A stretch of 64,000 bases of DNA, taken from NCBI RefSeq assembly GCF_008831285.2, contig NC_045138.2:18757934-18821933 (forward strand), given 5' to 3'. The notes below the pieces were generated by a model. The model searched no databases, was not told the DNA's origin, and saw only the letters and a list, made by a program, of their open reading frames with translations. This stretch comes from Nymphaea colorata (Eukaryota; Streptophyta; Magnoliopsida; Nymphaeales; Nymphaeaceae). Of this stretch, positions 1,223 through 53,887 are shown piece by piece; position 1 is the first letter of the stretch, and every line of letters begins with the position of its first letter. A program made the translations under genes and the position numbers.

Positions 1223-4200
1223 CTAACAACACAAAGGCAACATTACTAATCTCCAACATCCGACACAGAGAGAATTATTAATAAGTAATTGTTTCTCCTT
1301 ACCCGCAATACGACGCTCAATGACATCAGAATTGCGTTGAAGCAGTTCAGTGCAGTCCTCTATCTGCAGTTGAAGTTGAGGCAGGTCCCTCATCCCATTC
1401 GGCAAGCTCGTCAGCTCCGCCATGACTTCCAGTCTCACCAACCTAAGGCTGCAGAGGCGACCCAACCCTTCTGGTAGGCTCCTCAACCCAGGGAGGAAAC
1501 GGAGTTCCAAATCCGCCAGATTGGTTAGCCGACCGAGCCATTCAGGCAAGTGTCTCAAACCGATGCATTTATTGATTCTCAAGGATCGAAGATAGAGTAG
1601 AGGTTGCATCTTGTCCGGTAGACTCCTCAACAATGGCAGGTCTTCGAGTTTCAGGCTCCGTAGCTGAGACAACTCACCTAGCCATTCCGGCAAATGGGTA
1701 AGCCCACTGACTCTAGCGATCGACAGGCTTTGAAGTTGCGTGAGAGATCGCATCCCATCCGGCAGACTCCTCAACTCCGGCAGGCGAACGAGTTCTAATC
1801 TTTGAAGCTGAGAGAACTCACCCAGCCATTCCGGCAAGTGGGTCAGCTTGGGGCTTTCATGAATTTCCAACGCATAGAGGTTTTGAAGACGTTGGATCCA
1901 TTTTGGCACAGAATCCACTTCATCGTTCAACCTGATTATCAGTCTATCTACCCTACTTCCCAGGTTTCTGAATCCGCTGAGTCCATCCTTTGACTCAATC
2001 TCTAACTGCAACGATACAAGTGATGGATATATTATACGATCAGAACTGTTTCTAGAGCAAATCTGCACATGCTGGAGCCGAGGGAGGTGATGGTGTTGCA
2101 GAAGATCTGCTACCGGTGCAGCTAGGTTTGGGCAATCCGTCAGAAACAATCTCTCCAGATGCATCATATTCTCAAGTGCTTCCTCAGCCATTTGGGACTC
2201 CATAGCCAATCCCGGAAACCCATTCAGGTCTAAGCCTTTTAGTGCTGTCACTGTCTTCAACATGTGAAGAAACCCGTGCTCTTGCACGTCAAATTTAGGC
2301 AATTGATGCAGTTCTAACTCCCTAATGATATCCAACGATGTCAATGACATTGAATCAAGCTCAGGAAGGTCCTTTAGTTTCAGTTCGTGAAGTTGGGTGA
2401 GTCGCAGACCACCAAGTAATGACCTCAACTTTGGACAGTAGACAATCTCTACGCTTCGGAGGAAAGGCATTGTTTCTATTTGGGTCCACTCCTCTAGGCT
2501 TCCCATCCTGTGAATCTGTAGCGATTCTAGCTTGGGGAATCCAGCAGGTAAGACTCTCAACTTTGGGCAGTCATAAACCTCTAAACTGTTGAGCTGGGGC
2601 ATTGGTTCTGCTTGGGGCCACACCTCTAAGCTTTTCATGTTGGAAATGACTAGTGTTTCCAATTTGGGTAGGCATGTTAACATGGGTAATTCTTTCAAAA
2701 AGTTGCAGTTCTTTATAGAAACTCTCTGTAGACAACTTAAAGAACTTATCCAAGAAGGAAACCATGTACCAGCATAGTAAGACACTTCCAGTGTCTTGAG
2801 ACCTTTGGGAGGATGAAGCTCTTCAAATATGCCCTCGATTCTTTCTGTAAAACTACTGTTCGACTGATGAAGGGATGTTGGCCCACAATGTAACCTTAAC
2901 TCATGTAGTTTTGCTTTCTTGTGTAGTCCTGCATCTTTTGCCTCTACTCTGTTATGCACCCTTTCTATGTGATGAATACACAACAATCCTTCTAAATTGT
3001 TCATGTGATTCAACTCTTTGATGCTACATCCATTACTCTTGCTTGTATCACTGCCCACCACAAAGTTATTCAATGTTTGTAAGACTGTCAACTTACCAAT
3101 ATTTTCAGGCATACAAATGGGGAAAGAATATTCGTCTCCCAAGGGAAGATGTCGCAGAGCCCTCAGCTTTGAAGTACCTTTGGGGAGCATTTCGATACGA
3201 GTACCACTAAGGTTAAGCATCTCAAGGCTTCTTAGTCTTGAAATTGATTCTGGTAGAGTTGTTATTCCTGTGAATCTAAGATTTAAGTACTTCAGCAAAA
3301 CTAGATCTCCCAAAGTCTCTGGAAGTACTTGTAAGTGGAAGTTGTCACTTAGGTCTAGCACTCTTAGCCACTTTAAGTTCAAAAGGATGCTAGCTAGAGG
3401 ATATGTCCGGCATAAATCCCCTCTTAACACCAATGTTCGAAGCTTTGTGTGTTGATTGATTTGTGTGCCATCTACAAGAGACTCATGTGAGTTTGTTATG
3501 CACAAGGAACGTGCTTGACTCGGTGAAGTTCTTGCAGTCAGCGAGAGGTTCGAGGGGTTTGCGTTCTCATTTAGTCTCATGGAGGAGGCAAAATCATGAA
3601 CAATGTCATGTAACTTGTAGAGCTTCAAGTCCCTGTTAAATTGAACAAGTGAACAGCCAACTAGCATGTCAAGATATGTATGAGCAGTACAAATTTCCGT
3701 TTCTTCCGGCAGTGCTTCTTTCTCTGTAATGAATCCCTCAGCGACCCATAGCCAAGCTAGATCCTCCTTATACATCGGATAGTCTTTTGGGTACATGGAG
3801 CAATATGTCAGACATCGTTTCAAAGAAAAGGGGAGGTTCATGTAGCTTAAAGCAATGGTAGAAAGGATTTCTTTGTTCTCATCATTGTCGACAATGCCAT
3901 CCCATTTCCAGAATGGGCTGTTTTTAACCTTTTCCCAATCAGATATCTTCCTCTCCTTTTGTTTCAACAGGCTGCCCACAACACTTAATGCAAGGGGCAA
4001 CCCTTTGCAATTCTTTACTACATGCCTTCCAACATCTTTCACTCTGTCAAGTTCCTCTTCTGTCTCATCTCTCCTTAAAACTTTATTCACAAATAGGCAC
4101 CAACTTTCGTCATCTGATAAGCACTTCATTGGATGCACATATACATCATCGATCTTCACCTTAACTTCTTCTTTTCTAGTTGTGATGAGAACCCTGCTTC

Positions 4201-5119
4201 CTAGAGCACCTTGTTGCAAAAGGCCATTCAACTCAGTCCACCAATCATAGTCCCATGCATCATCTATAACAAGCAGAAACTTCTTCCCCTTCAAATGCTT
4301 CATTATCTCGAGGTTTAAAGCCTCCAACCCTGTTATGTTTTTCTCTCTCTTATTTTTTAATTGTTCTAGTATTTGTTCGAATAGTTGCTGTAGGCGGGGC
4401 CTTTCTGATGCACAGATCCATATGAACTTCTCAAAATGCGCTCTTATGCTCGAATTTTTGTAGACCCACTTGGCAAGAGTCGTTTTTCCGAGTCCCCCCA
4501 TACCAACGATTGCCACGACATGATTAGCCTCTTTTGCTTTATTATCGGGCCTTTTCTTCAACCACTCAACAACCAATTCCTCGTCCTTTTCTCTTCCAAA
4601 AATATTTTGCTCGGTGATATTAGAAGTTGTTAAGCGGTTGCTACATAATAATTTTGTTTGATCTAGTGGAGGTGCTAACCCAGTTGTGAGGGGTACAAGG
4701 CCATAGTTATCCTTCTCTTTGTAAAGTGAGTTCAGCCTCTCAGTCACCTCTTTTATCTCACTAGCGGTCTTGCGCATAAATAAGATGTTTCGACACATAA
4801 AAGAAAGAGAAGACAATTGTTTGCGTACCTTCCCCTGTCTAGTTTGTGCATCTAAGTCTCGGGTTTTGGCTGTATAGAGATCAATGATGTCTTCAGCATC
4901 ATAAATGGTGTGACTAACCCTCGCAATCCAGGCCTTAATGCTTCTGGACGTGAATTGCTTGTTATGAGCATCTTCAAGGATTGGTTGAATGGCCTTCAGT
5001 TGACTCTCCAGATTTCTTAGCTCGCTCTTCACAGAAGCAACCCCTGAAGCAAGTCTTTGAGCTTCTCCAACTACGAGTTCGGCCACTATGGGCAAAAGGG
5101 CTGCAACAATCTCTGCCAT
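1223..5119 (-). CDS. CC-NB-LRR (CNL) disease resistance protein
   Basis: Intracellular immune receptor of the RGA type, expected to sense pathogen effectors and trigger cell death. The open frame begins at 5164, but I choose the second Met (MAEIVAALL, 5119) because CNL coiled-coil domains start this way. Residue numbers count from 5164. Seen: EDIID motif near 91 in the coiled coil, P-loop GMGGLGKTT 221-229, kinase-2 LLVIDDAW 297-304, RNBS-B GSRVLITTR 322-330, GLPLAL 388-393, the RNBS-D block with CLTYCSMYPKDYPMYKEDL, and an MHD-like KLHDIVHDF near 517. Leucine-rich repeats fill about 560-1290. The last stretch is built of near-repeating 48-residue units with LPEWLG and RSLPDGM. One exon of about 1298 codons, all motifs intact, so it looks functional. 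Confidence 0.93.
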   Translation of the reverse strand: MAEIVAALLPIVAELVVGEAQRLASGVASVKSELRNLESQLKAIQPILEDAHNKQFTSRSIKAWIARVSHTIYDAEDIIDLYTAKTRDLDAQTRQGKVRKQLSSLSFMCRNILFMRKTASEIKEVTERLNSLYKEKDNYGLVPLTTGLAPPLDQTKLLCSNRLTTSNITEQNIFGREKDEELVVEWLKKRPDNKAKEANHVVAIVGMGGLGKTTLAKWVYKNSSIRAHFEKFIWICASERPRLQQLFEQILEQLKNKREKNITGLEALNLEIMKHLKGKKFLLVIDDAWDYDWWTELNGLLQQGALGSRVLITTRKEEVKVKIDDVYVHPMKCLSDDESWCLFVNKVLRRDETEEELDRVKDVGRHVVKNCKGLPLALSVVGSLLKQKERKISDWEKVKNSPFWKWDGIVDNDENKEILSTIALSYMNLPFSLKRCLTYCSMYPKDYPMYKEDLAWLWVAEGFITEKEALPEETEICTAHTYLDMLVGCSLVQFNRDLKLYKLHDIVHDFASSMRLNENANPSNLSLTARTSPSQARSLCITNSHESLVDGTQINQHTKLRTLVLRGDLCRTYPLASILLNLKWLRVLDLSDNFHLQVLPETLGDLVLLKYLNLRFTGITTLPESISRLRSLEMLNLSGTRIEMLPKGTSKLRALRHLPLGDEYSFPICMPENIGKLTVLQTLNNFVVGSDTSKSNGCSIKELNHMNNLEGLLCIHHIERVHNRVEAKDAGLHKKAKLHELRLHCGPTSLHQSNSSFTERIEGIFEELHPPKGLKTLEVSYYAGTWFPSWISSLSCLQRVSIKNCNFLKELPMLTCLPKLETLVISNMKSLEVWPQAEPMPQLNSLEVYDCPKLRVLPAGFPKLESLQIHRMGSLEEWTQIETMPFLRSVEIVYCPKLRSLLGGLRLTQLHELKLKDLPELDSMSLTSLDIIRELELHQLPKFDVQEHGFLHMLKTVTALKGLDLNGFPGLAMESQMAEEALENMMHLERLFLTDCPNLAAPVADLLQHHHLPRLQHVQICSRNSSDRIIYPSLVSLQLEIESKDGLSGFRNLGSRVDRLIIRLNDEVDSVPKWIQRLQNLYALEIHESPKLTHLPEWLGEFSQLQRLELVRLPELRSLPDGMRSLTQLQSLSIARVSGLTHLPEWLGELSQLRSLKLEDLPLLRSLPDKMQPLLYLRSLRINKCIGLRHLPEWLGRLTNLADLELRFLPGLRSLPEGLGRLCSLRLVRLEVMAELTSLPNGMRDLPQLQLQIEDCTELLQRNSDVIERRIAGKEKQLLINNSLCVGCWRLVMLPLCC

Positions 5120-5255
5120 TTTTGTGCACAGAGAGAGAGAGGGAGAGATGAACTGGTGATGCATGAGATCTAGCAGTTTGGTTTAAGTAAATAGAGATGG
5201 CTTGCATGAGACTGGAGCAGTCTGCTGGCAAACAAATAAGTACCACCTACTTTGA

Positions 5256-8338: not shown

Positions 8339-9061
8339 ATGTCGGGCGGCGTGGGTTCGGTGGCCGGCGACATGCGTCTGCCGGACGACAATGAGCCGCA
8401 CGCCTCTTCCCCAGCGAACCCCTTGGAGAGCGCTTCTCGCAAATTCCATATCCTTTCCTTCCGGCAACTTAACGTCCTGGCCATTATGATCGTCCTCGGC
8501 GCCAGCGGCATGGTCTCCCCCTATGACCTCGCCTTCTTCTTCTTCTCCATCGTCTACACCATCGTCATAGCCCGCATCGCCTTCCCTTCTTCCGTTCCCC
8601 CCGTCCGCGTCTTCCGCAAGGGCAACAAGCTCCTCGGCGCCTACATGGCGGTCGCGGCGCTCGTCGGGCTCATCCTTCCGATCATCTACATTGTGGAAGG
8701 CGTCGTCGACGGCGACCAGGAGGGGATGAAGGCGGCTGTGCCGCACCTTTTCCTGCTCTGTGCCCAGGTACTGATGGAGGGCTGGTCCTACTCCAGCCAG
8801 TTTTCGACCCCGACTCAAGCGTTCGTGCCAATCTTCTACAACACCAAAAGGGTCTTCTCCATCGTCGACTGGGTTCACGCAGAGCTCAGCAAAGAATCCG
8901 GCGACGTGGGATCCGTGCTCAGGCTGAGCATCGGCCGGGGCCTCGCTTTCGCCAACTTGGCACTCTGGTGCTTCAACCTCTTCTGCTTCCTCCTGCCGGT
9001 TTACCTCCCCAGAACCATGAAGGTTTACTTCCTAGGGAACAAGGAGAAGAAGGGCGCATGA
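8339..9061 (+). CDS. Multi-pass membrane protein, possibly DUF7733 family
   Basis: 240 residues in one exon, ATG in AAAATG context. A polar N-terminus of about 40 residues (MSGGVGSVAGDMRLPDDNEP) is followed by hydrophobic segments near 43-57, 60-82, 100-120, 133-147 and 200-222. The end is basic (KVYFLGNKEKKGA). The start, SGGVGxxxGDMxLPD, and this layout recall a conserved plant family of unknown function that I believe is DUF7733. The name is from memory and unchecked. The membrane location is predicted from hydrophobicity, and no enzyme motif is visible. The coding part is clearly GC-richer than its flanks, as in a real exon. The downstream gene lies on the opposite strand, so there is no shared transcript. 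Confidence 0.8.
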   Translation: MSGGVGSVAGDMRLPDDNEPHASSPANPLESASRKFHILSFRQLNVLAIMIVLGASGMVSPYDLAFFFFSIVYTIVIARIAFPSSVPPVRVFRKGNKLLGAYMAVAALVGLILPIIYIVEGVVDGDQEGMKAAVPHLFLLCAQVLMEGWSYSSQFSTPTQAFVPIFYNTKRVFSIVDWVHAELSKESGDVGSVLRLSIGRGLAFANLALWCFNLFCFLLPVYLPRTMKVYFLGNKEKKGA

Positions 9062-11331: not shown

Positions 11332-14327
11332 CTACGCAGACTCGTAGCCTCTGCTGGATTCCTCTGCTCTTCCACTGGGCCTCTGCTTTGGTGCAGCTAG
11401 GATGACTGACTCGCTTTGTGCACCCAACATCTGCTGCGATTCTCTGGATGGCACACCGAACGCCAATTCACTCGTCACCCCTTTCATGTTGCTGAATATG
11501 TTGTTCTTACCTGCAAGCCACACAGAAGGACAGAAATTTTAATGGACAAAAGCAGTACTTGACACATTACTTTGGATCGAGAACAAAATGAAATTCCGTC
11601 CCAGTATGATCTTACCGTGAATCCAAGAGACTGCTTGTACATGGTCACACTATATCTGGTTTCATGCAAAACCAAACGCATTTTTCTGGCAAATGGACCT
11701 TAAATCATTTTTGACAGAAGAAATTATTTTTATCGTCAAAACAAATTATAGATGCCATTTTACTTTTATGAAAAATGATAAGTACATTCAGATTTCAATA
11801 CGTTTGAATTCAGTTATGACGAATGTAGCAGTGTGACCCATGTTGTCTGATCGAAAGAATTAAGTAATTTAATTCTACTTGACTCCGAGGCTCCTCCTAC
11901 TCATTGTTGTGTTTTGCTGTCCTGTTGTTTTTTATAAGAAAAGAGTAGTTGAGCCGCTCTGTGAGTATAACCCAAGTGTATCATGCATGTGTGAAACGAG
12001 TGAGGTGATCTCAGTTTTCAAATTGCAACTTAATTTATAGTACCTGCTACCATGTACTTGTGGTTGAAGCCGGAGTTGGTTTCGAAGCAGAGGATGTGAA
12101 GGTCTTCATCGGCGACAATAGCTAACGGGTGGCCCGCCGGTGCAACAAAGACGGTCATCGGCGACAGCTCCGCGCTTATTCTCTGGTATCTTGCTCCTTG
12201 CTCCTCATCCTCCTTCCCTCCCTCGTCGACACGAACCCTTGATGTGTGCTGTTCCTCTTCTCCACGACCACGTTCGCTTGATCTCTCCTCCTCTTCCCCA
12301 CCACTACCACCACCACCACCACGGTGTCCCTGTGACTCTGAAACGTGGGGACACGCCATTTCCATGTATCCACGCCCGCGGATGATAATGGCGATCTTGG
12401 TAGCCCGAGAGTTGTAAGATGGAGCCAGCATTGATCCCTGTTAACACACCTTAATTTTAATCTGCCACCATTTAACACGTATCGCCAAGAGCCACATTCA
12501 TCACTCGAATGAAGACCAAGAAATCGATCTCCAGAAAAACCTTGTTTACAATTTATGCGCATTTAAGACTATAAAAAAAACATCACACGTCTCTCCAACA
12601 ACAAAAAAAAGAAAGCGATGTTCTTGACTGGCATTTGCATTATAAATGCAAGCAACTCGCCCCAAGTTGACGATGGAGATGGTGATAAAGAAAAGAAGGC
12701 ATAAATAGACTTACAGCACAGATCTTGGCGAAGGAGATAGAAAGGTCATGGTTGTGGAGAGGTGCATAGTCCCTGCTGCCCGCTTGGTATATCTGCCCAC
12801 GGCTACTAGAGAACCAGGGCCGTTTGTTCAGCAGGCTGTAGGGCTGATCCTTACAAAAGAGTATACTTAAGGGCCAGATTCGAAAGATCCCATCTGAACT
12901 CGCACGCCTCAGCTCTTCCATTTGCTCCCGTGTTGCCTTCTCCGTCACACGCTTCTGGCGCTCAAGCAACCCCATCAAACGATCTGTCTTTGTCTGTCAA
13001 GTGAAAGAGAAACGCAATCAGAGAGAGAGAGAGAAATGTAGAGACAGAGAGAGGAAGAGTGAGTTTTCTACATTGAAAGCTGCTTCCAATATCTCTGGAC
13101 TAAAGCTCTTGAAGAACGACTCTTGATCTTTTCTTCCAATGCCAAAGAAGCCCTGACAGCAGGATCCAGTGGTCAGAAAAATGCAAGAAACTGAATCTTT
13201 TCATGGAAGGACCAATTTCAATTTGAGCTCTTTAGATAGAGGAAAATGGATTTGGAAGACAAATATACAAATAAAAAAAAAAGGTGTTTACCAGTTCCCC
13301 ATCTCATTATCGAAGTAGTTCAAGAGCAAGACATGAAGCCAGAGGAATACCTTAGATCGGCCAGGGATAGATGTTGTGTGAGCTAAGTTAAGAACACATA
13401 GGTTCTCATTCTCGTCTGTGGCGGCTGTTAAGATCAACGACCCTGCGGGAATTAACATGATATCCCCTTCCTTGACATTGAACAATTCCTGCTTCCCTTC
13501 CTTCACCATTCCTATGGTGCCCTTGCCTGCGCATATAACAACCAGTGTTAAGGGGAGAGATACAGCTGATAAAAGGAAAAGCTTCAATATTGCCCAGCTA
13601 CATACCATTAAGAAAGCTTAGCAACCTTGCAGGAAAATTAGCACAAAAGAATTGAGCACGACTACCACTCACCACTATAGACATAGATGATGGAGTCCGC
13701 GTCTGAGTGATGTGGAGCTACCACAATGTTTGGACTCACCATCGACCATGAGACTCTGTAGTTCTCCAAACCTTTGAGCATTTCCGACCTTTCAGCAAAA
13801 TTTGGAAGCGTCCTCATGAAGCCTTCCTCCGAGGTATACCTAGGCGTGAAACTCTCCTTCTTCCACACATAAGGGTTTTCTGTTTCCTCTTCCCCCTCTC
13901 CCTCCTTCAGCATTCCCTCCCCAGATCCGCTTCTGCCTCCCTGTTGCCGCCGCTCCTCCTCCTCTCTGCACTGGAGCTGGCAACGTCGCCTCTGCTCCTC
14001 ATCCTCGCCCTCCCTCCTGCATTTCTCCCAGCAGTCTCGATCCGAGTTCCGGCCAGCACCGGCTCCTCCTTCGCAGAGGCGCCTGCACTCCTGCTGCTGC
14101 CGCTCGTCGCTGCCAGCTCTCCGGCATTGTCTCTCGCACTTCTCCTGGCCGCTTTCCTCGCAATGGTGCTCGCACATTTGGCGTTGGCTTTCATCTTCGT
14201 ACTCGCGATGACAACGTTGCTTACATTCGCTCTGGGGGTCCCGCTCACTCGACACAAAGGACGGAAGAAGGAGAACTAGCGAGAGTGAGACTACCATGAA
14301 GAAGACGAGAAGAGTCCTGGACGCCAT
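11332..14327 (-). CDS. Vicilin-type 7S seed storage globulin with N-terminal hairpin repeats
   Basis: Seed storage globulin, secreted into protein storage vacuoles. Six exons with GT-AG junctions in consistent phase: 14327-13673, 13526-13351, 13152-13072, 12993-12715, 12437-12044, 11510-11332. They give 1764 coding bases and 587 residues, usual for vicilins with an N-terminal extension. Residues 1-27 are a signal peptide. Three C-X3-C-X12-C-X3-C hairpins follow at C35-C56, C64-C85 and C99-C120. The first cupin starts near 150 (NPYVWKKESF, then GKGTIGMVKEGK and GDIMLIPAGS). The second cupin spans exons 4-6 and is interrupted in exon 5 by a Gly/Glu/Arg-rich insertion, as in many vicilins. The end resembles the NxxFLAG...ELAF region (YMVAGKNNIFSNM, ELAFGVPS). 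The extension matches the region that yields hairpinin peptides such as MiAMP2 in other species. No broken frames. Confidence 0.93.
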
Positions 14328-14474: not shown

Positions 14475-14482
14475 CATGCATG
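14475..14482. promoter_or_regulatory. RY repeat (CATGCATG), seed-specific promoter element
   Basis: CATGCATG is the palindromic RY motif bound by B3 regulators (ABI3, FUS3, LEC2) in seed storage promoters. It lies about 60 bases upstream of the TATA box, with ACGT-core motifs at about 14486-14490 and 14518-14522. This arrangement is typical of seed globulin promoters. Use in this plant is inferred. Confidence 0.65.
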
Positions 14483-15978: not shown

Positions 15979-18006
15979 TCACCATTTTGCTTTGCCGCTG
16001 CTGGTCTCGCGACCGGCCTTGTAGCATATGCGGCAATCGCACCGGCCAAGTTCCTGGCAGCGGCGGAGGCACCGGTTCCGGCACTCCTTCTCCATCTTTC
16101 GGTCACTTTCTTCCTCCTCCTCCTCTTCGCCAGCCTCGAGCCTCCGGTCGTTAATCTTGCACCATTTCCGGCATTCTTGCTTGCTGAATCGAAGTTCTTG
16201 GCACTCATCAAAGCATTTCTCATACCTCTTGCTGCCATCGTAGACTTCGAACATAATGCTACCGGCATCGCCATTGCCATCTACCTGGCCCTTATGGCCG
16301 TGGCCCCCCCTGCGCTCCTCTTCGCAGCGGCGGGAGCACTCGTACTGCTCCTGTTTGCTTCCTCCCTTCCGGCTGCACTCTATCCTGCAGTCCGTGTGGT
16401 GGTTCACGCCGGCGTAAGACTTCTCGACGGTGCTGCTATCGTGCTCGCGCCTGCACTCATGCTCGCACCGCTGGCGCTGGTGTTTGTGGAGCTCCTTCCC
16501 GCTGCATTCCCTCCTGCACCTCTCAGGATCTTTGGCCTTAATGATCGAGTAGAACCCGAAGGGAGCGTTGTCAACGCCGCCGTTGCTGTCCTGAGACCTC
16601 CGGCCGTTATCGCCCCCACTACGTTGTTCCTCGCACCGGCGACTGCACTCGTACTGCTCTTGTTTGCTTCCTCCCTTCCTGCTGCACTCCATTCTGCAGT
16701 CCACGTGGTGATTCACGCCGGCGAAAGATTTCTGGTTGGTGCTGCCATCGTGCTCGCGCTTGCAGTGGCGCTCGCACCGGAGACGTTGGTGCTCGTCAAG
16801 CCCACTCCCGCTGCACTCCCTCCTGCACCTCTCAGGATCTTTGGCCTTGATGATCGAGTAGATCCCGAAGGGCGCGTTGTCAACGCCACCATTGCTGTCC
16901 TGATACTTTCGGCCGTTATCGCCCAGCCTACGTTGTTCCTCGCAGCGGATCCTGCACTCGTACTGCTCTTGCTTGCTTCCTCCTTTCCTGCTGCACTCCA
17001 TCCTACAGTCCCTGAGATGCCTCAGGCTGGACAGAGTATTTTCGTCGCTGCTGTCGTCGTTCTCCCGCATGCACTCGCGTTCACACCGCCGCCGGTGGTA
17101 CTCGTCGAGTCCGCTGCCTCTACAATCCCTCTTGCACCTCTCAGGATCTTTGGTGTTAACGATTGAGTAGACCATGGCTGCTTTATCGCCGGTGCCGCCA
17201 GTCCCATCCTGATACTTGCTAGTGTTATCGCCGTGCTCCCGCCTGCGCTGCTCCTCACAGCGGCGCAAGCACTCGTCCTGATCTTGCTTGCTTCCTACCC
17301 TCCTCTTGCACTCCATGCTACAACCCCTGAGGTGACTCCCGCCGGCGTACATTTTCTCGTCACCACTGTCATCGTGCTCGCTCCTGCAGTCGCTTTCGCA
17401 CCGGCGGCGCAGGCGCTCGTCGAGGCCCCTGCCGCTGCACTCCCTTCTACAGCTCTCAGGATCTTTGGTCTTAGCGATAGGGTAGAACCCGGGGGCCGCC
17501 TTGTCAACATCGCCGTTACCATCCTGATACTTCCGGCCGTTATCCCTGTGCCCCTGCTTGCTCTGTTCCTCGCACCGGCGCCAACAGTCGTACTGCTCCT
17601 GCTTGCTTCCTCTCTTCCTGCTGCACTCCATCCTACAGTGCCTCTGATTATTCACGCCGGTGTAAAGCTCCTCGTTGCCATTGCCACTGCCGCGGTCGCG
17701 CCGGCACTCTCGCTCGCACCGGCGGCGCTGGGGCTCGTCGAGGCCCCTCCTGCTGCACTCCCTCCTGCACGCCTGAGCATCTTTGACCTCGCTGATCGAG
17801 TAGAACGTGGAGGCCTCTTCATACTTTTTATACGGACACTTTATCTGGCAGAACTTGACCTTCCATATCTCGCGATACTCTTGTGCACATTGTTTCTTGC
17901 AGTCCGTCTTCTGCTGCAAGGAGGCTTTCCCAGAGGCGGTAGAGAGGGACAGGAAAAATAAGATCGCGGAGAGACATAGGAGCAGAATGGCGCGGTTGGA
18001 CGCCAT
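15979..18006 (-). CDS. Secreted polyprotein of twelve alpha-hairpinin repeats, no cupin (vicilin-derived)
   Basis: Intronless, 675 residues. A signal peptide (1 to about 25) is followed by hairpins: C36-C57, C80-C101, C124-C145, C186-C207, C229-C250, C291-C312, C334-C355, C394-C415, C437-C458, C497-C518, C540-C561 and C598-C616. The first eleven have exactly C-X3-C-X12-C-X3-C; the last has a 9-residue loop. Hairpins 2-11 form five tandem units of 103-106 residues, each a type A hairpin (loop with GLDE) and a type B hairpin (loop with GSKQEQYE). Linkers are rich in Asp, Asn and Gly with a conserved YSIIKAKDPER. An acidic Glu run is followed by a tail with six cysteines (642-661). The vicilin downstream carries the same hairpin type and a similar first-exon start (MAS), so this looks like a paralogue lacking cupins. 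Likely role, by analogy with luffin P1 and vicilin-buried peptides: precursor of small defence or inhibitor peptides cut by asparaginyl endopeptidase in seed vacuoles. That role is inferred. Confidence 0.88.
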   Translation of the reverse strand: MASNRAILLLCLSAILFFLSLSTASGKASLQQKTDCKKQCAQEYREIWKVKFCQIKCPYKKYEEASTFYSISEVKDAQACRRECSRRGLDEPQRRRCERECRRDRGSGNGNEELYTGVNNQRHCRMECSRKRGSKQEQYDCWRRCEEQSKQGHRDNGRKYQDGNGDVDKAAPGFYPIAKTKDPESCRRECSGRGLDERLRRRCESDCRSEHDDSGDEKMYAGGSHLRGCSMECKRRVGSKQDQDECLRRCEEQRRREHGDNTSKYQDGTGGTGDKAAMVYSIVNTKDPERCKRDCRGSGLDEYHRRRCERECMRENDDSSDENTLSSLRHLRDCRMECSRKGGSKQEQYECRIRCEEQRRLGDNGRKYQDSNGGVDNAPFGIYSIIKAKDPERCRRECSGSGLDEHQRLRCERHCKREHDGSTNQKSFAGVNHHVDCRMECSRKGGSKQEQYECSRRCEEQRSGGDNGRRSQDSNGGVDNAPFGFYSIIKAKDPERCRRECSGKELHKHQRQRCEHECRREHDSSTVEKSYAGVNHHTDCRIECSRKGGSKQEQYECSRRCEEERRGGHGHKGQVDGNGDAGSIMFEVYDGSKRYEKCFDECQELRFSKQECRKWCKINDRRLEAGEEEEEEESDRKMEKECRNRCLRRCQELGRCDCRICYKAGRETSSGKAKW
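16300..17790 (-). repeat. Coding tandem array, five units of about 309-318 bp
   Basis: The repeated block CTCAGGATCTTTGG (plus strand) marks each unit. The copies near 16512 and 16821 are 309 bases apart and nearly identical over about 70 bases. All units keep the reading frame (103-106 codons). The two units nearest the 3' end of the gene are the most alike, suggesting the most recent duplication or gene conversion there. Confidence 0.85.
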
Positions 18007-21548: not shown

Positions 21549-23900
21549 TCAGGTCAAGCCAACCCAACTCTTGAAAACTAAGGCCTCTTCCCTTTTCCTG
21601 CATTGAGCTTCAGTCTGGAAGTTAGAAGCCTTTTTGTTCTTGTAAAGTGTTCGGTGGTATTTTAAGAAAAGTTGCCTGTACTTGAACTTGTCAATGAACA
21701 TGCCTGTATGTTCCATCATATTGACTACTTCGTTAGCTCTCTGAAAAAATCCACCTCTAACAAAGTTGTACAACACAGAGTCCAGCAGTTCTTGGTCAAA
21801 TCTGATAGCAGAAGAAGGGAACATTTTCATTTCACCCCATAACTCCGCAATCTCTTGGTATTTTCCCCCTACGGCAGAGTATCCAGTCACCAAGGAATGA
21901 AATGTCTGTGCATTTGGAAGATGCCCAAGCGCCTTCATCTTCTTCAGAGCCTTTCGTGCATCTTGCATCAACTGCTTCTTACAGAAAAAATGAATCACAT
22001 TGTTCCAGTCATGCACACCATACTGCAACTTTTGGTCATCATTGATTTCTTCTAACAGTTTTACCATCAACTTTGATTGACCGCTAGCTTCACATTCTTT
22101 TATCACTGAGTCAAAACCATCATAACTGTTGCTTGAAATCCTTGCCTCCTTCATCTCCTTGAAGAGTCCAAGTGCACCGTGGATATCCTTCCGAGACACC
22201 TGTGTATGAATAAGAGCCTCATAACAACTAGCATCAAGTTGGACCCCACATTTTCGTGCATCATTTAGGAGACATGTGATTTCACCAATTTTATTCAACC
22301 TACAATAGGCTTTAAGTAGGGACGAATAGACAGAAGAACCAGTTCTAACGCCCGCAACTCTCATCTCATCAAGAAGGTCATGTGCCTCTTCCAGTTTCCC
22401 AACTGAGATGCAAGCATGAATGACTTGCACAGGAATGGAGTTCTCTATGGACATGGGAGTCTCTTCTTTATTTGCTGAAATTAAAAATGCAGCCAAATCA
22501 GCTACTTTCCGCAGTTCCAGAAAGGCTCTGACAAGCTTTGCATATACTTTCTCTGTTGGGTACAGAATCCCATTTTCTGATCCCACCAGGTAAACATGAT
22601 TACTTATTCTATGCAATAGCAAGGAGAGCAACGCTTTGGCCTCTGTCTCAAGTCTCAAGTACTTCCAATCCTGACAAAAGTCAACAAATGATGGCAGAGA
22701 AGTTTCTGTTGGCCTAGGAAAGCTTGAAAATGAATTATCACCTAGACTGTTACCTGTACCAGTTTTCTCCAGATATCCTTGTTTATGAGATTCGATGGCT
22801 TCTACAACTGACATGGCTGCCTTAAGAGACACTCGTGCTTCCTTTGCCTTTCGGAGCATTTCCAAAACTATCTCCGATGCAGATTTCAGATCACCAAAAT
22901 TCAGATGGCAGGTAAGCAAACAGTTATAGAACTCTTGATACTGACGGTCTCCAATTTGACAGCTTTCATCTATGTGCCGCCTCAGTTTCTTGATTTCATC
23001 AATGCGCCCATTTTTCTCACAGATGTGTGCCATCATAATCAATAATGTAACGTCAGCTTTCAACCCAATGCGAGGCATCATCTCTAGAAGCTGTTCTGCT
23101 TTCCTTGTAGATCCATGAACCAGACAAGCACTCAAACAAATGTTGAACACTAAAGCATTAGGTTTCATGGCAAGCAGCAAACTGTTGGACTTTTTTCGAG
23201 GATCCACTCTGTTGTCCTTAAAAAAATGGCACTTCTCAAGCACCATCTCAGCAGCCAGCCAAGCACCAGATGCAGATAATGACATATACGCTGCTATAGA
23301 GGACCATGCATTTATAGATGGGAATTCCTCCATCTGCACCATTTTCCTTAAAATCGTAGATGCAGGGACTGGTAATCCAGCCCTTGCAAGGACATAAGAA
23401 AGAAAAAGAAGAGTGTCTTTCTCCAACAAATTCCTTTTATGCTCGTCAAAAGCCAAGACTGTCACACCATAAGCTTTATCAAGCCACTGGCGGTCCTGGC
23501 TTTCAGCCAGACAACAGATGAGTTTGTTGATAACAGATTTTCTAGGAAAACCTTCAATCTGTTTATACCGCTCATAAGCATTCCAGGCATCTTCATATCT
23601 CCGTTCATCAAGTGCGTTCCCAAGTTCTAAAGCTAGCTGAGATGGATCCCTAGCCCGGACAAGAATCGATTCATCTGTAAAAGATGCCGAAGCCTGGGAG
23701 GAACAACAGCACTTAGAGCAGTATGCTGGTTCAATGCTGTTCCTATTGCATGAACCCTGACCAACCACCTGAGCCCTTGCATGGAACAACGGTCGATAAT
23801 TACCAACATCAACTACTGGCAATAGGTTGGGTGCTGAAAGTGAACCAATCAACCGGTATCCAAACCTTCGAAGCAATCGGACATTAGTCATTGCCACCAA
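21549..23900 (-). CDS. Pentatricopeptide repeat protein, mitochondrial type
   Basis: 783 residues, one exon. The N-terminus is basic and hydroxylated (MVAMTNVRLLRRFGYRLIGS), as in mitochondrial presequences. PPR-like helical pairs are visible from about 247 (PNALVFNICLSACLVHG), 485-585 (VIHACISVGKLEEAHDLLDEM, SSVYSSLLKAYCRLNKIGEI, SCYEALIHTQVSRKDIHGAL) and 628-695 (WNNVIHFFCKKQLMQDARKAL, TFHSLVTGYSAVGGKYQEI). The DERRYEDAWNAYERYKQIEGFPRKS block near 98-121 recalls Arabidopsis At1g03100 and At4g17616. This is a P-class relative without an E or DYW editing domain. It should bind organellar RNA; the target is unknown. The frame is intact. The second Met at codon 4 is an alternative start. Confidence 0.88.
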   Translation of the reverse strand: MVAMTNVRLLRRFGYRLIGSLSAPNLLPVVDVGNYRPLFHARAQVVGQGSCNRNSIEPAYCSKCCCSSQASASFTDESILVRARDPSQLALELGNALDERRYEDAWNAYERYKQIEGFPRKSVINKLICCLAESQDRQWLDKAYGVTVLAFDEHKRNLLEKDTLLFLSYVLARAGLPVPASTILRKMVQMEEFPSINAWSSIAAYMSLSASGAWLAAEMVLEKCHFFKDNRVDPRKKSNSLLLAMKPNALVFNICLSACLVHGSTRKAEQLLEMMPRIGLKADVTLLIMMAHICEKNGRIDEIKKLRRHIDESCQIGDRQYQEFYNCLLTCHLNFGDLKSASEIVLEMLRKAKEARVSLKAAMSVVEAIESHKQGYLEKTGTGNSLGDNSFSSFPRPTETSLPSFVDFCQDWKYLRLETEAKALLSLLLHRISNHVYLVGSENGILYPTEKVYAKLVRAFLELRKVADLAAFLISANKEETPMSIENSIPVQVIHACISVGKLEEAHDLLDEMRVAGVRTGSSVYSSLLKAYCRLNKIGEITCLLNDARKCGVQLDASCYEALIHTQVSRKDIHGALGLFKEMKEARISSNSYDGFDSVIKECEASGQSKLMVKLLEEINDDQKLQYGVHDWNNVIHFFCKKQLMQDARKALKKMKALGHLPNAQTFHSLVTGYSAVGGKYQEIAELWGEMKMFPSSAIRFDQELLDSVLYNFVRGGFFQRANEVVNMMEHTGMFIDKFKYRQLFLKYHRTLYKNKKASNFQTEAQCRKREEALVFKSWVGLT

Positions 23901-30011: not shown

Positions 30012-32144
30012 TCAATGAGCATAAACAGTCTCATTGCGCCTTGGCGGTCTATCAGGTATTGTTCCTGGCTTAAACTTCGAAGCCTCATGTCTTGCAAGCT
30101 CTGGTGGAACAGGACTGTTGCTTTGAATAAGCATCTGTTTCAAGTCATAGAACACTTCACTATCACCGAAAGTGAGGAAAGTGGTCGCCACCCCTGTCTT
30201 CCCTGCACGCCCTGTCCGACCAATCCTGTGGGTATACATTTCAATATTGTTTGGCATATCATAGTTGATCACGTGGGCAACATCCGGAATATCTATACCA
30301 CGACCAGCGACATCCGTCGCCACCAATACGGTGAACCTCTTGTTTCTAAATCCCTCCAGACTGATCTCTCTTTGCTCCTGCGTCTTCCCTCCATGCAATG
30401 TTGTCACCCTGTAACCCACTTTATCGAGATGTTTAGCGAGTGTATCGGCAGCTTTCTTTGTGTTGATGAAGACAATTGCCGTCTTGTCTCCCAATTCCTC
30501 AAGAAGCCTTTGCAACCTTGACATCTTCTCTGACTCCTTCAGCATAATCACATGCTGAGTAATCAATTCCGTTGCTTTTCCGGCCGTCCCAATTGTCACC
30601 ACCACTGGATTCCTCAGGTACTTCCTTGCCAGCCGCTCTACTGCAGGCGGCATTGTGGCGCTAAACATATATGTGGTCCTGTATATCTTCTTCTCGTCGA
30701 GTTCCTCATCTTCATTCTCCGGCTTCAAATTGCTGGATGGCATTGCATCAAGAACACCAACCACCTGCGGCTCGAAACCCATATCGATCATTCTATCAGC
30801 TTCATCAAGCACAACATAGTTACACTGATTCAGCACAGCATATCGCCTCTCCAAACAATCAAGAAGCCGACCCGGAGTGGCAATCACCACCTCGCACCCC
30901 TGGCGCAACTTGAATCCCTGTTCCTCAATCGATTGCCCACCAACGACCGACACCACCCTAATGTCCAAATAATGTGCAAATTTCACCGTCTCGTCCTCAA
31001 TTTGCTGCGCAAGCTCTCTGGTGGGCGCCATAACCACAGCATAAGGACCCTCGGCTTCGTTTTCCTCAGTCATCGGTGGGAGACGAGAGATGTAGGTCAG
31101 CATGGGAAGCACAAAAGCGGCAGTCTTGCCGGACCCAGTTTCGGCAATACCTATCACATCACGCTGCTGCAAACCCAAAGGAATCGCGGCCATCTGAATA
31201 GGGGAGGGGGATTTGTAACCCGCCTTCTGGACGGCGCGGAGGAGCTCGGCGCTCAGGTTCCCTTCCTCCCAATTCCTCATAGGGCGGGGAATCCGCGACC
31301 CCTTGTAGGAGATGTTGAAGTCTTCACGGAAGATCCTCCAATCCCTCTCGGTCATCTCCTCGAGCTTCTTCTCCGACCAGTGGCGGTCAACCCTCATGTC
31401 GAAGGTGTCGTACAGGTTGGCCGCGGCTTCCTTCTTCCGCTGCGCGGCCGCATCCTCGGGCTTCTCCTCCACCCCTTCCTTCTTCCGGATCTCCTCCCGA
31501 AGCTCCTTCTCATTCTTCGCGGCGAGCTTCTTCTGCTCCCGCCGGTCCATCCCGGCGCGGAACCCCCGACCGAAGAGGAGCTGTGCTTCATGGGGGTTCT
31601 GGTACAATGCGTTCATGTCTCTCGATGTGTCCTCCGAGTTCTCCCAATCGAACGAGAACCGGAACTTCTCGCTCGGCTTGATGACGCGCTTCTTCGGCTT
31701 CTTGGAGCCGAGGTACTGCTCCTTGATGGCATCGAGCTCCTTCTCCTTCTCCCTCTCTGAGAGCTTTTCCTGCCGCACTCGGTCCCGCGCCTTCGCATCC
31801 TCGTCGCGGCTCCTGCGATCGAGCTCCCGGTCCCGGTCGCGTTCACGCTCGCGTTCGCGATCCCGGTCCCGGTCCCGGTCCCGGTCCCTGTCCCTATCGC
31901 GGGAAGAGCGGTGGCGATCAGAAGAGTCATTGGCGGTGGTGGTGGTAGTGGTGGCGGCTGCAAAAGAGGCGGAGGCTTCGTTGAACGGCTTGACGGCGAG
32001 GCTCCGAGCTTCTTCCAGGCGGCGGCGCTGCTCGGCAGCTTCCCCCTGGCGGCGCTGGAGTGCTAGTTGCTCCCTCTGGGCCTTGGTGAGGAAGACGGGC
32101 TTCTTCGACGGATCGACGCCATCCCCCTCTAGCGCTCTCTTCAT
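30012..32144 (-). CDS. RH21: DEAD-box RNA helicase 21 (PRP28/U5-100K orthologue)
   Basis: Spliceosomal ATP-dependent helicase that helps exchange U1 for U6 at the 5' splice site. 710 residues, one exon, like Arabidopsis RH21 (about 730, also intronless from memory). An Arg/Asp dipeptide region covers about 82-110. Core motifs are all present: Q motif with SPIQMAAIP near 314, AETGSGKT 334-341, PTRELA 374-379, TPGR 423-426, DEAD 447-450, SAT 495-497, [13 protein letters not shown] near 608 and HRIGRTGR 639-646. The end ([11 protein letters not shown]) is typical of the family. The long N-terminal region [20 protein letters not shown] also matches PRP28. No lesions. Confidence 0.95.
31790..31900 (-). 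repeat. Short-unit coding repeat (Arg-Asp codons) in RH21
   Basis: On the plus strand this is a CGGTCC-type hexamer run that encodes alternating Arg and Asp/Glu. It is the RD-rich arm of the helicase. Length variation between individuals would be expected. Confidence 0.8.
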
Positions 32145-44604: not shown

Positions 44605-45225
44605 CCATATTGTCAATTTTATAGAAAAATGAAAGAACATGAAACTTGAGACCTATGCAAAGTAAATTTAACTTTCACAAAATGGGTGTCCCGCCAGGTC
44701 GACATGGCTGCAAAATCTGTTCCTTTGTAAAGCGATTCTGGAAGGACTACTTTGTAAAGGCTGCACAGAGTGTCAATAATATATATATATATAACGAAAT
44801 GGTATGAAACTGGGACTACCTTGCAATGTGGTCCATAATTAAAGCAGTGATTCTTGCAGAAGCCTAGAATGCATGTTATTTCGCACATATACAAATATCT
44901 CTGGCCATTCTCTTCCTCTGTGAGCGGAGCGAAGCCACTAGCAGTGGCATTTCTTGGTCTCGTGTAAGTCTTCCCTCATTTGTTCCCTAGTCCTCTGTCC
45001 CTCCATATCTGAGATAATGAGGCGACAGGAAGAAGAGACAACAATCAATATCAAAGAAGATGCCGCACCGACCAGCTGTTGGGCGGCAGATATCACAAAA
45101 GACTACAAAGAATATGCTGCTTCAGGGTCTCTTGCTGTTGCTGGTGGTGGCAGATCTCTTAAGTGCATCTTCAAATGGCCGCATGATCTTGAGAAACTTT
45201 TGGGGGAGGACATCTACCGTGAACC
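44605..45225 (+). repeat. Segmental duplication, copy 1 (partner 63449-64000)
   Basis: From CCATATTG onward the sequence matches 63449-64000 closely through the promoter and into the DUF247 coding start, and the match continues to the window edge. This copy has about 65 bases at 44806-44870 that the partner lacks, next to an AT-microsatellite difference. Confidence 0.9.
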
Positions 45226-46730
45226 TCAAATGGTAGCCATTGGGCCTTACCACCACGGCCGACCGCACCTGCAACCTATGGAGCGGCACAAGAAGAACGC
45301 GCTCTTCAGGATTCTCCGGTTGTCTGGCGGACTTCCGGTGTCCATCTTTGTGGAACCCCTGAAACAAGTGGAGCAGAAGCTCCGTGATCACTACGACGAG
45401 CTGGACCCAAGCTGGTCGTCCGATTCTTTCATACAGATGATGCTTCTCGACGGTTGTTTCTTGCTCGACTTCCTTCTTGCCTTGGACAAAAAAGTGGACG
45501 CACCCTTGGCCGAGTCCATCCGCCTGCAGCTGCTTAACACCTATGGCTACGCCGTATTCATTCGAGACATACAGCTGTTAGAGAATCAAATTCCTGGCCT
45601 CGTCTTGGACGAGTTGATTAATGTAGGAGACTGGACAGGATTCCGTAAGCCAGAGAGTGGAAGTAAACTATCCTTCAGGGCTCTACATTTTCTAGACTTG
45701 CAGAGGAAAAGCTTGCTGGGGAATCCCCCTGCTCCTGTCAAGGAACAGCATCGTTGTGGCCTCCTCAATCTTTTAGGTACTCAAATGGCTTGATGTGCAC
45801 TTTTCTAGCTATTCAAATCTTGTGCATTAATACTCTTTAACGATATTTGTAGCATAATATCCCTGTACGTGGAAAATCCTCTTCTTTTTCTGAACAGAAA
45901 AAGATTCCATGTTTTGCTCATGAAAAAATTTAAATTCTAAAGGCCGGGGCATGCGTTTCTTGTTGATTACACTTATAATTAGTTGCAATTTTTTGATAAA
46001 TTGATATTTAATTTGGAAAAAAAATGTGTTCCTGTCCACCTAATTATCTGGACTGAGACCAGGCCCTCGGAGGAGAACTCAACCAAAGACTTTTCCATCT
46101 TCCAGCCAACAGGCTGATAAGCAAAGCACTAGTAACATGGATTTTGCGGTTGAGCTTCTCCCAAAGAGAGAGAAGTACGTGCGGTCTGCCACGAAGCTAC
46201 GTGCCGCCGGAGTCAGCTTCCAGAAGTGCCCGAAAGATGCCGGCCTGTTGAGCGTGAGTTTTGATCGATCATGGCTAAGGGGAGTTCTCCATCTCCCTGA
46301 GCTCGTCCTGGACGAGACGACGGAGGGAGTGTTCATGAATATGGTGGCCTTCGAACGCATGCACCCGGAGTCCGGGACCCAAGTCACCTCCTTTCTTTCT
46401 TTTATGGATGCTCTCATCGATACCGCCGACGACGTGAGCTTCCTCGGCAATGAAGGGATCGTGAAGAACAACCTCGGCAGCGATGAGGCCGCCTCCAAGA
46501 TCTTCAACAAGCTCGGCATCCATGGGATGTGTAACCCCTTTGATGAGGCCCAGCAGAAGGTGCAGAAATATGCATCCCCTTATATGCAAGAATGGTGGGC
46601 GCACTTTAAGCGGACCCACTTCACCAGCCCGTGGACCGTTCTGTCTTTTATTGGCGCCCTGTTCTTCATATTAATCACAATTGTCCAGACGGCATACACC
46701 GTCCTCCCCTACTACAAACGTCGTGGATAA
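45017..46730 (+). CDS. DUF247 family protein, two exons
   Basis: Plant-specific membrane-anchored protein of unknown biochemistry. Exon 1 is 45017-45776 (start MRRQEEETTINIKED, preferred over an upstream Met at 44954 because the duplicate also starts there), donor TTAG|GTACTC. Exon 2 is 46171-46730 after GAGAG. Its phase and 560-base length equal those of the copy at 49-51 kb, which fixes the otherwise weak acceptor. Product 439 residues. Seen: MVAIGPYHHGRPHLQPMERH (DUF247 signature, about 72-91), MMLLDGCFLLDFLLA, IQLLENQIPGLVL, RSATKLRAAGVSF, VAFERMHPESGTQVTSFLSF, MDALIDTADDVSFL, and a C-terminal hydrophobic anchor ending VLPYYKRRG. Intact. It sits in a cluster with other DUF247 copies. Confidence 0.88.
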
Positions 46731-49167: not shown

Positions 49168-51426
49168 TCAGTAGCGGGTGTAATAAGACAGGATGGAATA
49201 CAGAGTCTGAGCAATTGTTAAAGCTAGCAGAAATATGGCAGCAGAGAGTGATAACAGGGACCATGGATTGTTGAAGTAGGTATGCCTCAGATGTGCACGC
49301 CATACATTCCAAGCAGAGGAAGCGTAGACCTTCAACTGTCTTTTGATCTGACATGTGTGATCATTTGAATCGTCTACAAGAACAATGTTATCTCCCACCC
49401 TGTTGAAGAGATTGGCAGCTGCATCGTCGCTCCCAAGATCATTCCTCACGATTCCGTTGGAGCTAAGGAGGCTCACGTCCTCTGCAGTGTCTATAAGATC
49501 ATCCATGAAAGCCACATATGAGGTCACTTGGCAGCCTGCTTCTGGGTGCATGCGCTCGAAGGCCATCAGGTTCATGTAGACAGGTGCTGTGTGATTATCT
49601 ATCTTAATGAATGGAAGGGTGAGCACGCCATATCTACTGAACTTTATGTTCAACCCGCTTTGCCGTTTGCTCCTTCTGAATTTTACTCCTGCTTCATGAA
49701 GACTCTTTGCAGATCGAGCGCATCCACCTTGTTGACATTGGTCCAGTTAGGAGAAAATAACGTCAGAAAGATTCATATAAGTGAATGTGTGCGTGTGTTT
49801 GTAGATGACTGTGGATTCTTAGCTTTTTTTTTTTCGTTTTTCTTCTAAATGACCATGAACAAGGGCTGGAGGATGTAGGGATGCAAATGGATTGGATTCA
49901 AACTATCTAATTTCCTAAGAAACTAGATTTGATTGAATCCCCTATTGTTGACAAACCAAAATCACAAAACCATAAATTGGCCACTTGCATCCTCAGGAAG
50001 AAGAGAAAAGTAAAAGTGCTTAACTGTGAAGACCACTTGAAGGAATTTGCTTTGAATATACATGTAATTAAAATTCCTCTGCTCTACTCAATTAGAAAAG
50101 CTGCAGACATTAATAATAGCCATCCCTAGCTAGGTATCAGCCTGTGGCAGGCAAACTAAGAACATACTAAAATGTGTTTACTCGCAAATTATATGAAGCA
50201 GACATTTCTACTATAAAGCTAATAAACATTTGGGGGAGAAACAGAGGAAACGGCAGGTGCCTTAGGACCCTCCTTGGATTGTGATTCTTGCGCAGCGAAA
50301 TAATGATTTCAGGCTCATTACTGAAAAATAGAAAAGAGGAATATAAAAACTAAGAGTAGGGCTTTGATTTTCGGAAATTAAAAAAAGTGGGCATCTCCAG
50401 GAGGGTTGCTAGTAATCAACCTTGTAGAGTATAATTGTAAGGCCAAGATGAATCTACACACCCACAGACAACAACCATTTCGACATTACGGAAAAGACTC
50501 ATCAGAGAATTTCCAGAAGCATGAAAGAGGCATACAAAATCCTCTCTTCCATAGCATGTTCCTGTGGAACAATTCTTGTTATGGCTGGCTATGTACTCAC
50601 CAATAAGGTCAATCCCCATTGGAAATGGCAAAGGAGCATGCTGATTAGAACTCTGCTCCGGGCGCCGGATTATGCACTTCCTGTAGACGTCTAGAACATG
50701 CAAACCAAGATCAGGCATCGAAAAAGAAGGGAAGTCAAAAAATTTGGTTATCAATCGATTGAGATCAACACTGTTTCCAACTTCTCCTTCTTTCCCTGCA
50801 TCAAGAAGCCTCTTTAGAACAAGAAGAGGGATTTGGTTTTCTAGCATCAGCATATCCCGGCGCAGCAAGGTGAACGCATGCTTCTTCCCGTGGCGGCTGA
50901 AGATGGGATCGAAACGGCTTAAGATGTAGCTGGGAGAACCAAAATCTTCTCGTCCAACGGATGCATAAGCAGGTTCAGCTCCACCATTTAGTGAAGGGCT
51001 CTGCAGGAGACGACCATCAAAGAGCAGGAGTTCAAGCATGAAGCAACCATCAAGGAGCATCATCTTCAAGAAAGCTTCAGACGACATATCTGGATCGATG
51101 TCGCAGTAGCTATCCCTGACTTGCTGTTCCACTTGCATCAAGGAATAAACGAAGCGAGACAGTGGGACTTGGGTTCTCGCTTGGATCCTGTATAGAGCTC
51201 TTTCTTTGTGGAACTCCATGGGCTTCAAGTGTGGTTTCCCATGGTGGTAGGGGCCGAAAGAGGCCATCCGTGGGGCGTAGGTGCTACTGGGCCCCGAGAC
51301 ATTAACAATGTCATAGGGCAATTTGTAAATCGTTGTCTTCGACATCTTCTTCAGGTATCTTGCATCGTCATATTCTCTGGATCTGCTTTCGAGCTTCGCC
51401 ACCCAGGCGAGCCTGTCTTCCTCCAT
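49168..51426 (-). CDS. DUF247 family protein, two exons, diverged copy
   Basis: Exon 1 is 51426-50601 (MEEDRLAWVAKLESRSREYD), with a strong donor TTG|GTGAGT. Exon 2 is 49727-49168 after ACAAG. Phase 1 intron, 461 residues. Seen: MASFGPYHHGKPHLKPMEFH, MMLLDGCFMLELLL, DMLMLENQIPLLVLKRLL, SAKSLHEAGVKFRRSK, LMAFERMHPEAGCQVTSYVA, DDLIDTAEDVSLLSSNGI and the C-terminal anchor ending ILSYYTRY. It has an extra loop after LLLFDGR compared with the 45-kb copy and is only distantly similar, so this duplication is old. The genes face each other tail to tail. No lesions seen. The function of the family is mostly unknown; in grasses DUF247 genes lie at the S and Z self-incompatibility loci. Confidence 0.88.
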
Positions 51427-53459: not shown

Positions 53460-53887
53460 CGAACCTAGTCCTGGGCACCCTCTCCGGCCACCACCAAATG
53501 GTAGGAACTCAAAATCCGGGCTCCCTTTAAAATCAAACGGCTTCTCAAGGAACCGTTCCGGCCGATACGTTTCCGGGTCGTCCCAGGAATGTGGATCCCG
53601 TGCGATTGCATATGCATTGACCAGCACCCTTGTCTTGGCTGGGATGACGTAGCCATCGAGCTCACATGGCTCGATGGACTCGCGAGGACCGCCAGGTGCA
53701 GCCGAAGCGTCTCCTTGATCACAGCCTGCATGTATGCTAGGTCCGACTCGGTTATGGTTCCTCCTTTCCTCGCTGCGCTGCGGATCTCATCCTGGGTCCT
53801 TCGCATCACCTCAGGATGCCTGATGAGCTCGGTCATGGTCCATTCTAGTGTTGCCGATGTCGTCTCGGTCCCAGCGACAAACACGTC
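53460..53887 (-). pseudogene. CYP71-type cytochrome P450, exon 2 fragment
   Basis: After an acceptor TCGCTGCAG the frame reads DVFVAGTETTSATLEWTMTE (I-helix AGTETT), then [13 protein letters not shown] and KETLRLH (K-helix ExxR). Near 53685 the frame changes and some residues of the PxxPL region are missing. It resumes as [44 protein letters not shown] and the haem loop [10 protein letters not shown]. Right after that the P450 sequence stops ([10 protein letters not shown]). No exon 1 is visible upstream. With a frameshift, a lost 3' end and no first exon this is a dead fragment of a CYP71-clan gene. Confidence 0.85.

Follow-up and report, generated by a model that had tools for sequence, protein, structure and literature searches.

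The window, by which we mean the whole stretch of 64,000 nucleotides of Nymphaea colorata DNA that was analysed, carries on its minus strand a single coding frame for an alpha-hairpinin polyprotein and, downstream of it, an intact vicilin gene encoding three hairpins followed by cupins (Table 1). The polyprotein frame runs through 675 codons without an internal stop, against 3, 18, 17, 8 and 41 stops in the remaining five frames of the same interval, and its G+C content is 74% at third codon positions, 54% at first and 48% at second positions. As read from the DNA the coding part is intronless, one open frame extending from the ATG to the stop.

Table 1 Features of the hairpin polyprotein gene and its vicilin neighbour (positions within the window).
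Feature	Position	Strand	Remarks
TATAAA	18079..18084	-	78 bases before polyprotein ATG
Alpha-hairpinin polyprotein, one coding frame	15979..18006	-	675 aa; ATG at 18006, TGA 15981-15979
Signal-like peptide, aa 1-25	17932..18006	-	hydrophobic N-terminus; end placed by eye
Tandem array of A-B pairs	16287..17806	-	Tandem Repeats Finder: period 309 bp, 4.9 copies, 75% matches
Hairpin 1, unlike types A and B	17836..17901	-	Cys motif
Hairpin 2, type A	17704..17769	-	Cys motif
Hairpin 3, type B	17572..17637	-	Cys motif
Hairpin 4, type A	17386..17451	-	Cys motif
Hairpin 5, type B	17257..17322	-	Cys motif
Hairpin 6, type A	17071..17136	-	Cys motif
Hairpin 7, type B	16942..17007	-	Cys motif
Hairpin 8, type A	16762..16827	-	Cys motif
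Hairpin 9, type B	16633..16698	-	Cys motif; AlphaFold2 model made
Hairpin 10, type A	16453..16518	-	Cys motif
Hairpin 11, type B	16324..16389	-	Cys motif
Hairpin 12, short, CX3CX9CX3C	16159..16215	-	Cys motif
C-terminal tail, aa 617-675 (59 residues)	15982..16158	-	acidic run, then six Cys, non-hairpin spacing
AATAAA	15825..15830	-	about 150 bases past polyprotein stop
Vicilin gene, 587 aa, three hairpins and cupins	11332..14327	-	intact; about 1.65 kb downstream of polyprotein gene
Vicilin exons	14327-13673, 13526-13351, 13152-13072, 12993-12715, 12437-12044, 11510-11332	-	ends by eye, from GT/AG and frame

The first-pass annotation had described an intact frame with eleven exact C-X3-C-X12-C-X3-C hairpins and a short twelfth, which a motif count in the 675-residue translation confirmed. 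The exact motifs start at residues 36, 80, 124, 186, 229, 291, 334, 394, 437, 497 and 540, and in 2000 residue shuffles of the polyprotein the same motif occurred 0.025 times on average and never more than once; the twelfth hairpin (aa 598-616) has a spacing of nine residues. When hairpins were scored against each other in ungapped alignments with the Cys residues left out, values fell between 58 and 83 within type A, between 61 and 110 within type B and between -9 and 30 for A against B. The order along the protein is hairpin 1, five A-B pairs and hairpin 12, the first and last lying outside the pairs. Linkers measure 21-40 residues overall, those from A to B being 21-22 residues long and those from B to the next hairpin 36-40, and a tree of the five pairs was weakly supported (0.67 and 0.89). 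In the tail, the six Cys lie between aa 642 and 661 with the spacing CX3CX3CX5CXCX2C.

A Pfam search at E values up to 0.1 returned one family for the polyprotein, Vicilin_N (PF04702; E 7.4e-11), over five stretches of which aa 495-570 was the best. No cupin was found at this threshold, which bears out the earlier description of a hairpin polyprotein lacking that domain, nor was PF14861, the family given for the barnyard grass precursor in a 2024 review (PMC11253845). NCBIfam gave no match for the polyprotein or for the first-exon frame of the neighbouring vicilin. In a search of its own genome with the whole polyprotein, which diverged paralogues could escape, the one candidate, and the one scored, was the polyprotein itself. 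The gene also has its own TGA and AATAAA, as first proposed. The minus strand orientation, the six-Cys tail, the ordering into A-B pairs and the vicilin gene downstream on the same strand were absent from that first reading. On the opposite strand, an open frame of 290 codons (16294-17166, plus strand) lies over the hairpin array in a frame that is stop-free for 395 codons; it is likely a by-product of the composition of the array.

All five introns of the vicilin gene have GT and AG ends. Its product matches Cupin_1 in Pfam (E 1.1e-26), and its best solved relative by sequence is a 48-kDa glycoprotein (6l4c, E 1e-92). When the remainder of the window was searched in six frames with a looser motif, six matches were obtained, namely the three vicilin hairpins, one further match within the vicilin (V3_81), which is no hairpin and was rejected as an overlap artefact of the search pattern, and two isolated ones at 14477 (plus strand) and 4034 (minus strand).

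Predicted fold and known hairpinin precursors

Hairpin 9 was modelled with AlphaFold2 (39 residues) from an alignment of 14 hairpins chosen by their Cys pattern, the 11 exact ones and three from the vicilin, hairpin 12 being omitted. The model has two predicted helices, at residues 5-16 and 20-35, with a mean pLDDT of 76. When it was compared with 350,542 PDB chains using Foldseek, plant hairpinins took ranks 1 to 8 of the 24 listed: walnut Jug r 2 (three times), BWI-2c, the Ana o 1 leader, VBP-8 and luffin P1 (twice). Probabilities for these eight ranged from 0.95 to 0.18 and E values from 0.45 to 4.9, none of them significant; for a predicted model of only 39 residues, it is the ranking of the hairpinins that we consider telling. 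A model of a two-hairpin A-B dyad was poor (pLDDT 62) and gave no fold match in the structure search. A profile of the A-B pairs matched a hairpin of walnut Jug r 2 (E 0.0011) and then five more solved hairpins of the family (E 0.021-1.2). The 14-hairpin profile was less specific than the pair profile, matching solved EcAMP1 weakly (E 0.029), and Jug r 2 with E values of 2.8 and 2.9. Its list also contained a 14.5 kDa salivary protein at E 1.2 and, at E 4.8, a scorpion-type potassium channel toxin.

A 2020 review (PMC7191063) distinguishes vicilin-type hairpinin precursors from a second type, whose members have 5-12 hairpins, lack homology to vicilins and end in a short C-terminal domain. According to the same source, second-type precursors have a signal peptide and intronless genes, chickweed having 12 hairpins, barnyard grass 7 and wheat 5-7. 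A 2024 survey names this type 'modular', with up to 12 hairpins, and reports 30 precursors of 2-8 modules predicted from the 1000-plants transcriptomes, 6 of the 30 having similarity to vicilins yet no cupin domain; it also mentions that cupin-less precursors have been misnamed vicilins (PMC11591084). Almond Pru du 8 is likewise described as a seed protein with hairpin motifs and no cupin (PMC13027201, PMC8399460).

The first-pass annotation regarded the number of hairpins and the absence of a storage domain as unusual, a view that the published range for the second type, and the 12 hairpins of chickweed, contradict as far as PMC7191063 describes them. Neither twelve hairpins nor a missing cupin is new, and the gene is a new example of a known precursor type. 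It has the modular features of twelve hairpins with linkers, a 59-residue tail, a single open frame and no cupin, and the lack of cupin domains sets it apart from vicilins (7S globulins). The absence of vicilin similarity usual for the second type is not seen here, as the polyprotein matches Vicilin_N, a family of the N-terminal region and not of the cupins. Because 6 of the 30 surveyed precursors are vicilin-like and lack a cupin, this match is compatible with membership of the modular type.

Compared by published description, chickweed (Stellaria media) Sm-AMP-X shares with the polyprotein 12 hairpins, a short C-terminal prodomain and an intronless gene, and has a signal peptide where the polyprotein has a signal-like N-terminus, but its prodomain has 19 residues and no vicilin similarity is described for it, whereas here the tail has 59 residues and six Cys, Vicilin_N is matched and a vicilin gene lies alongside. 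Tk-AMP-X from wheat and EcAMP from barnyard grass are also described as intronless, with a signal peptide, a cassette of hairpins and linkers and a C-terminal prodomain; they differ in hairpin number (5-7 and 7 against 12), and as noted the profile match to EcAMP1 is weak and PF14861 is not matched. Pru du 8, again by description, has CX3CX10-12CX3C repeats and no cupin, and some of its orthologues are misnamed vicilin-like, but it is a 31 kDa protein whereas the polyprotein without its signal amounts to 75.8 kDa. Macadamia MiAMP2, pumpkin PV100 and walnut Jug r 2 have the same hairpin pattern and Vicilin_N, and the polyprotein matches a Jug r 2 hairpin; these vicilin-type precursors are described as having a vicilin domain after 2-4 hairpins, unlike the polyprotein, which has no cupin. 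The downstream neighbour is of their type.

Proposed peptide release and constraint on the repeats

The architecture of the gene (its frame, hairpins, linkers and tail, without a cupin) matches the published second type, and on these sequence features we consider it probable (about 0.8) that the polyprotein is a modular alpha-hairpinin precursor from which seed defence peptides would be cut in the linkers. The dedicated cupin-less precursor first proposed thus remains the best reading, although not as the unusual case it was taken for. The polyprotein would enter the secretory pathway of developing seeds, where each hairpin would fold as a helix-loop-helix with two disulphides (Cys1-Cys4 and Cys2-Cys3 in the alpha-hairpinin fold), and vacuolar proteases would cut the linkers, which bear Asn and Asp. 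The freed peptides, of about 4-5 kDa and mostly cationic, may defend the seed from fungi or act as protease inhibitors, and the five A-B pairs would yield two alternating kinds of peptide in about equal numbers.

In the region from aa 26 through hairpin 12, none of the 20 Asn falls in the 12 hairpin cores (261 residues; 8.8 expected) and all are in linkers, a distribution that suits asparaginyl endopeptidase (AEP). The depletion is inflated because the repeats are copies of each other, and in a single consensus A-B pair that we composed it has a P of 0.055; Gly, Pro, Thr, Ala and Val are likewise depleted in the cores, as expected of helices. Of the 44 Asp, at which AEP also cuts, 10 fall inside hairpin cores. 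When we cut out each hairpin with 8 flanking residues, 9 of the 12 segments had a net charge of +1 or more and three were about neutral, and the positive charge suits an antimicrobial role. According to a 2021 paper (PMC8659199), AEP excises only some of the hairpinins, and a precursor may contain hairpins that do not accumulate as peptides.

The promoter gives seed expression no support. The motifs CATGCA/TGCATG, which we take to be RY motifs of the seed type, occur upstream of the polyprotein ATG only at -636 and -462, far from the start, whereas the vicilin neighbour has CATGCATG close by, at -155, together with a TATA-like box at -88.

The five A-B pairs were compared with each other by the Nei-Gojobori method. 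Over all ten comparisons, which share members and hence are not independent, dN/dS was 0.25-0.54 and dS 0.45-1.04, with a mean dS near 0.7. In the hairpin columns (48 codons) dN was 0.11-0.23 and dN/dS 0.11-0.41; in the linker columns dN was 0.26-0.52 and dN/dS 0.29-0.96, one comparison being near neutral (0.96). In 10 of the 10 comparisons dN was lower in hairpins than in linkers. Silent differences between the pairs are numerous and the hairpins change less than the linkers, a pattern that points to long purifying selection. The repeats, old by silent change and kept in frame, also suggest that the gene was translated over a long time. A recent silencing that has left the frame intact is extremely unlikely for the polyprotein gene. 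In its favour, the whole protein had no listed match in its own genome besides itself; against it, a frame of 675 codons has been kept through the silent change seen between its repeats, at the dN/dS values given above.

The constraint also bears on the possibility that the polyprotein serves mainly as a sulphur- and Arg-rich nitrogen store, left whole or cleaved only into a small number of large pieces, apparently like Pru du 8. A content of 13.9% Arg and 8.1% Cys would suit such a store, the adjoining gene is a vicilin, and almond Pru du 8 is described as seen in 15-kDa fragments, or 20-kDa fragments in earlier work (PMC13027201). However, the hairpins are under tighter constraint than the linkers, which seems more than a role in nitrogen storage alone would require, and single peptides have been detected by mass spectrometry in chickweed and wheat, the other 11 peptides of the chickweed precursor being confirmed in this way (PMC7191063). 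We regard the storage role as unlikely, and release of individual hairpin peptides as the preferred reading.

Relation to the neighbouring vicilin

The two genes lie on the same strand and 1.65 kb apart, an arrangement that would also allow the hairpin frame to act as an alternative first exon spliced onto the cupin exons of the downstream vicilin. Nevertheless, the polyprotein has its own stop, AATAAA and TATA box, and the vicilin its own ATG, signal-like peptide and TATA-like box, which makes this arrangement very unlikely and favours two separate genes.

Derivation of the polyprotein gene from the neighbouring vicilin is plausible because of the shared strand, the short distance between the genes and the similar placing of the first hairpin, at aa 36 in the polyprotein and aa 35 in the vicilin. 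A specific history is tentative and seems to us rather doubtful: tandem duplication of the vicilin, loss of the cupin exons from the new copy, and amplification of two hairpins of that copy, as a pair, into five A-B units. The direct tests of a local origin, by promoter, hairpin pairing and Vicilin_N, were negative or without clear correspondence. A local alignment of the 1.5 kb upstream of each gene revealed no shared promoter, with a score of 29 that lies within those of 100 shuffles (mean 23.8, maximum 34). For type A hairpins the scores run from 8 to 29 with vicilin hairpin 2 and from 16 to 43 with vicilin hairpin 3 (V4_99), showing no greater likeness to hairpin 2; for type B the scores are 13 to 22 and 7 to 31, respectively. 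The highest score of polyprotein hairpin 1, obtained with hairpin 1 of the vicilin, is only 9. Furthermore, the hairpin region of the neighbour, unlike the polyprotein, has no match to Vicilin_N at E up to 0.1, which lowers the odds of an origin by tandem duplication.

In the open-access literature, surveyed mostly through listings, we found no report of a modular precursor gene adjoining a vicilin in head-to-tail order. In PMC7191063 and PMC11591084 the vicilin type and the modular type of hairpinin precursor are kept apart, and with one of each arranged head to tail, an origin of the modular from the vicilin type becomes testable. The polyprotein gene adds a twelve-hairpin precursor with ordered pairs beside a vicilin gene, and the tandem placement hints at how cupin-less precursors may arise; if the duplication history were true, a storage protein would have been turned into a peptide polyprotein with two products. 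Hairpins of vicilins are described as contributing to cross-allergy between nuts (PMC12497738).

Elsewhere in the window, a CC-NB-LRR resistance-type gene occupies a single open frame of 1313 aa (1223-5164, minus strand), followed by frames for a DUF7733 protein (8339-9061, plus), a PPR protein (21549-23891, minus) and a DDX23-like DEAD-box helicase (30012-32144, minus). Two DUF247 genes, each spread over two frames of the ORF list, lie on opposite strands (45017-46730, plus; 49168-51426, minus), and a piece of a cytochrome P450 lies at 53465-53836 (minus).
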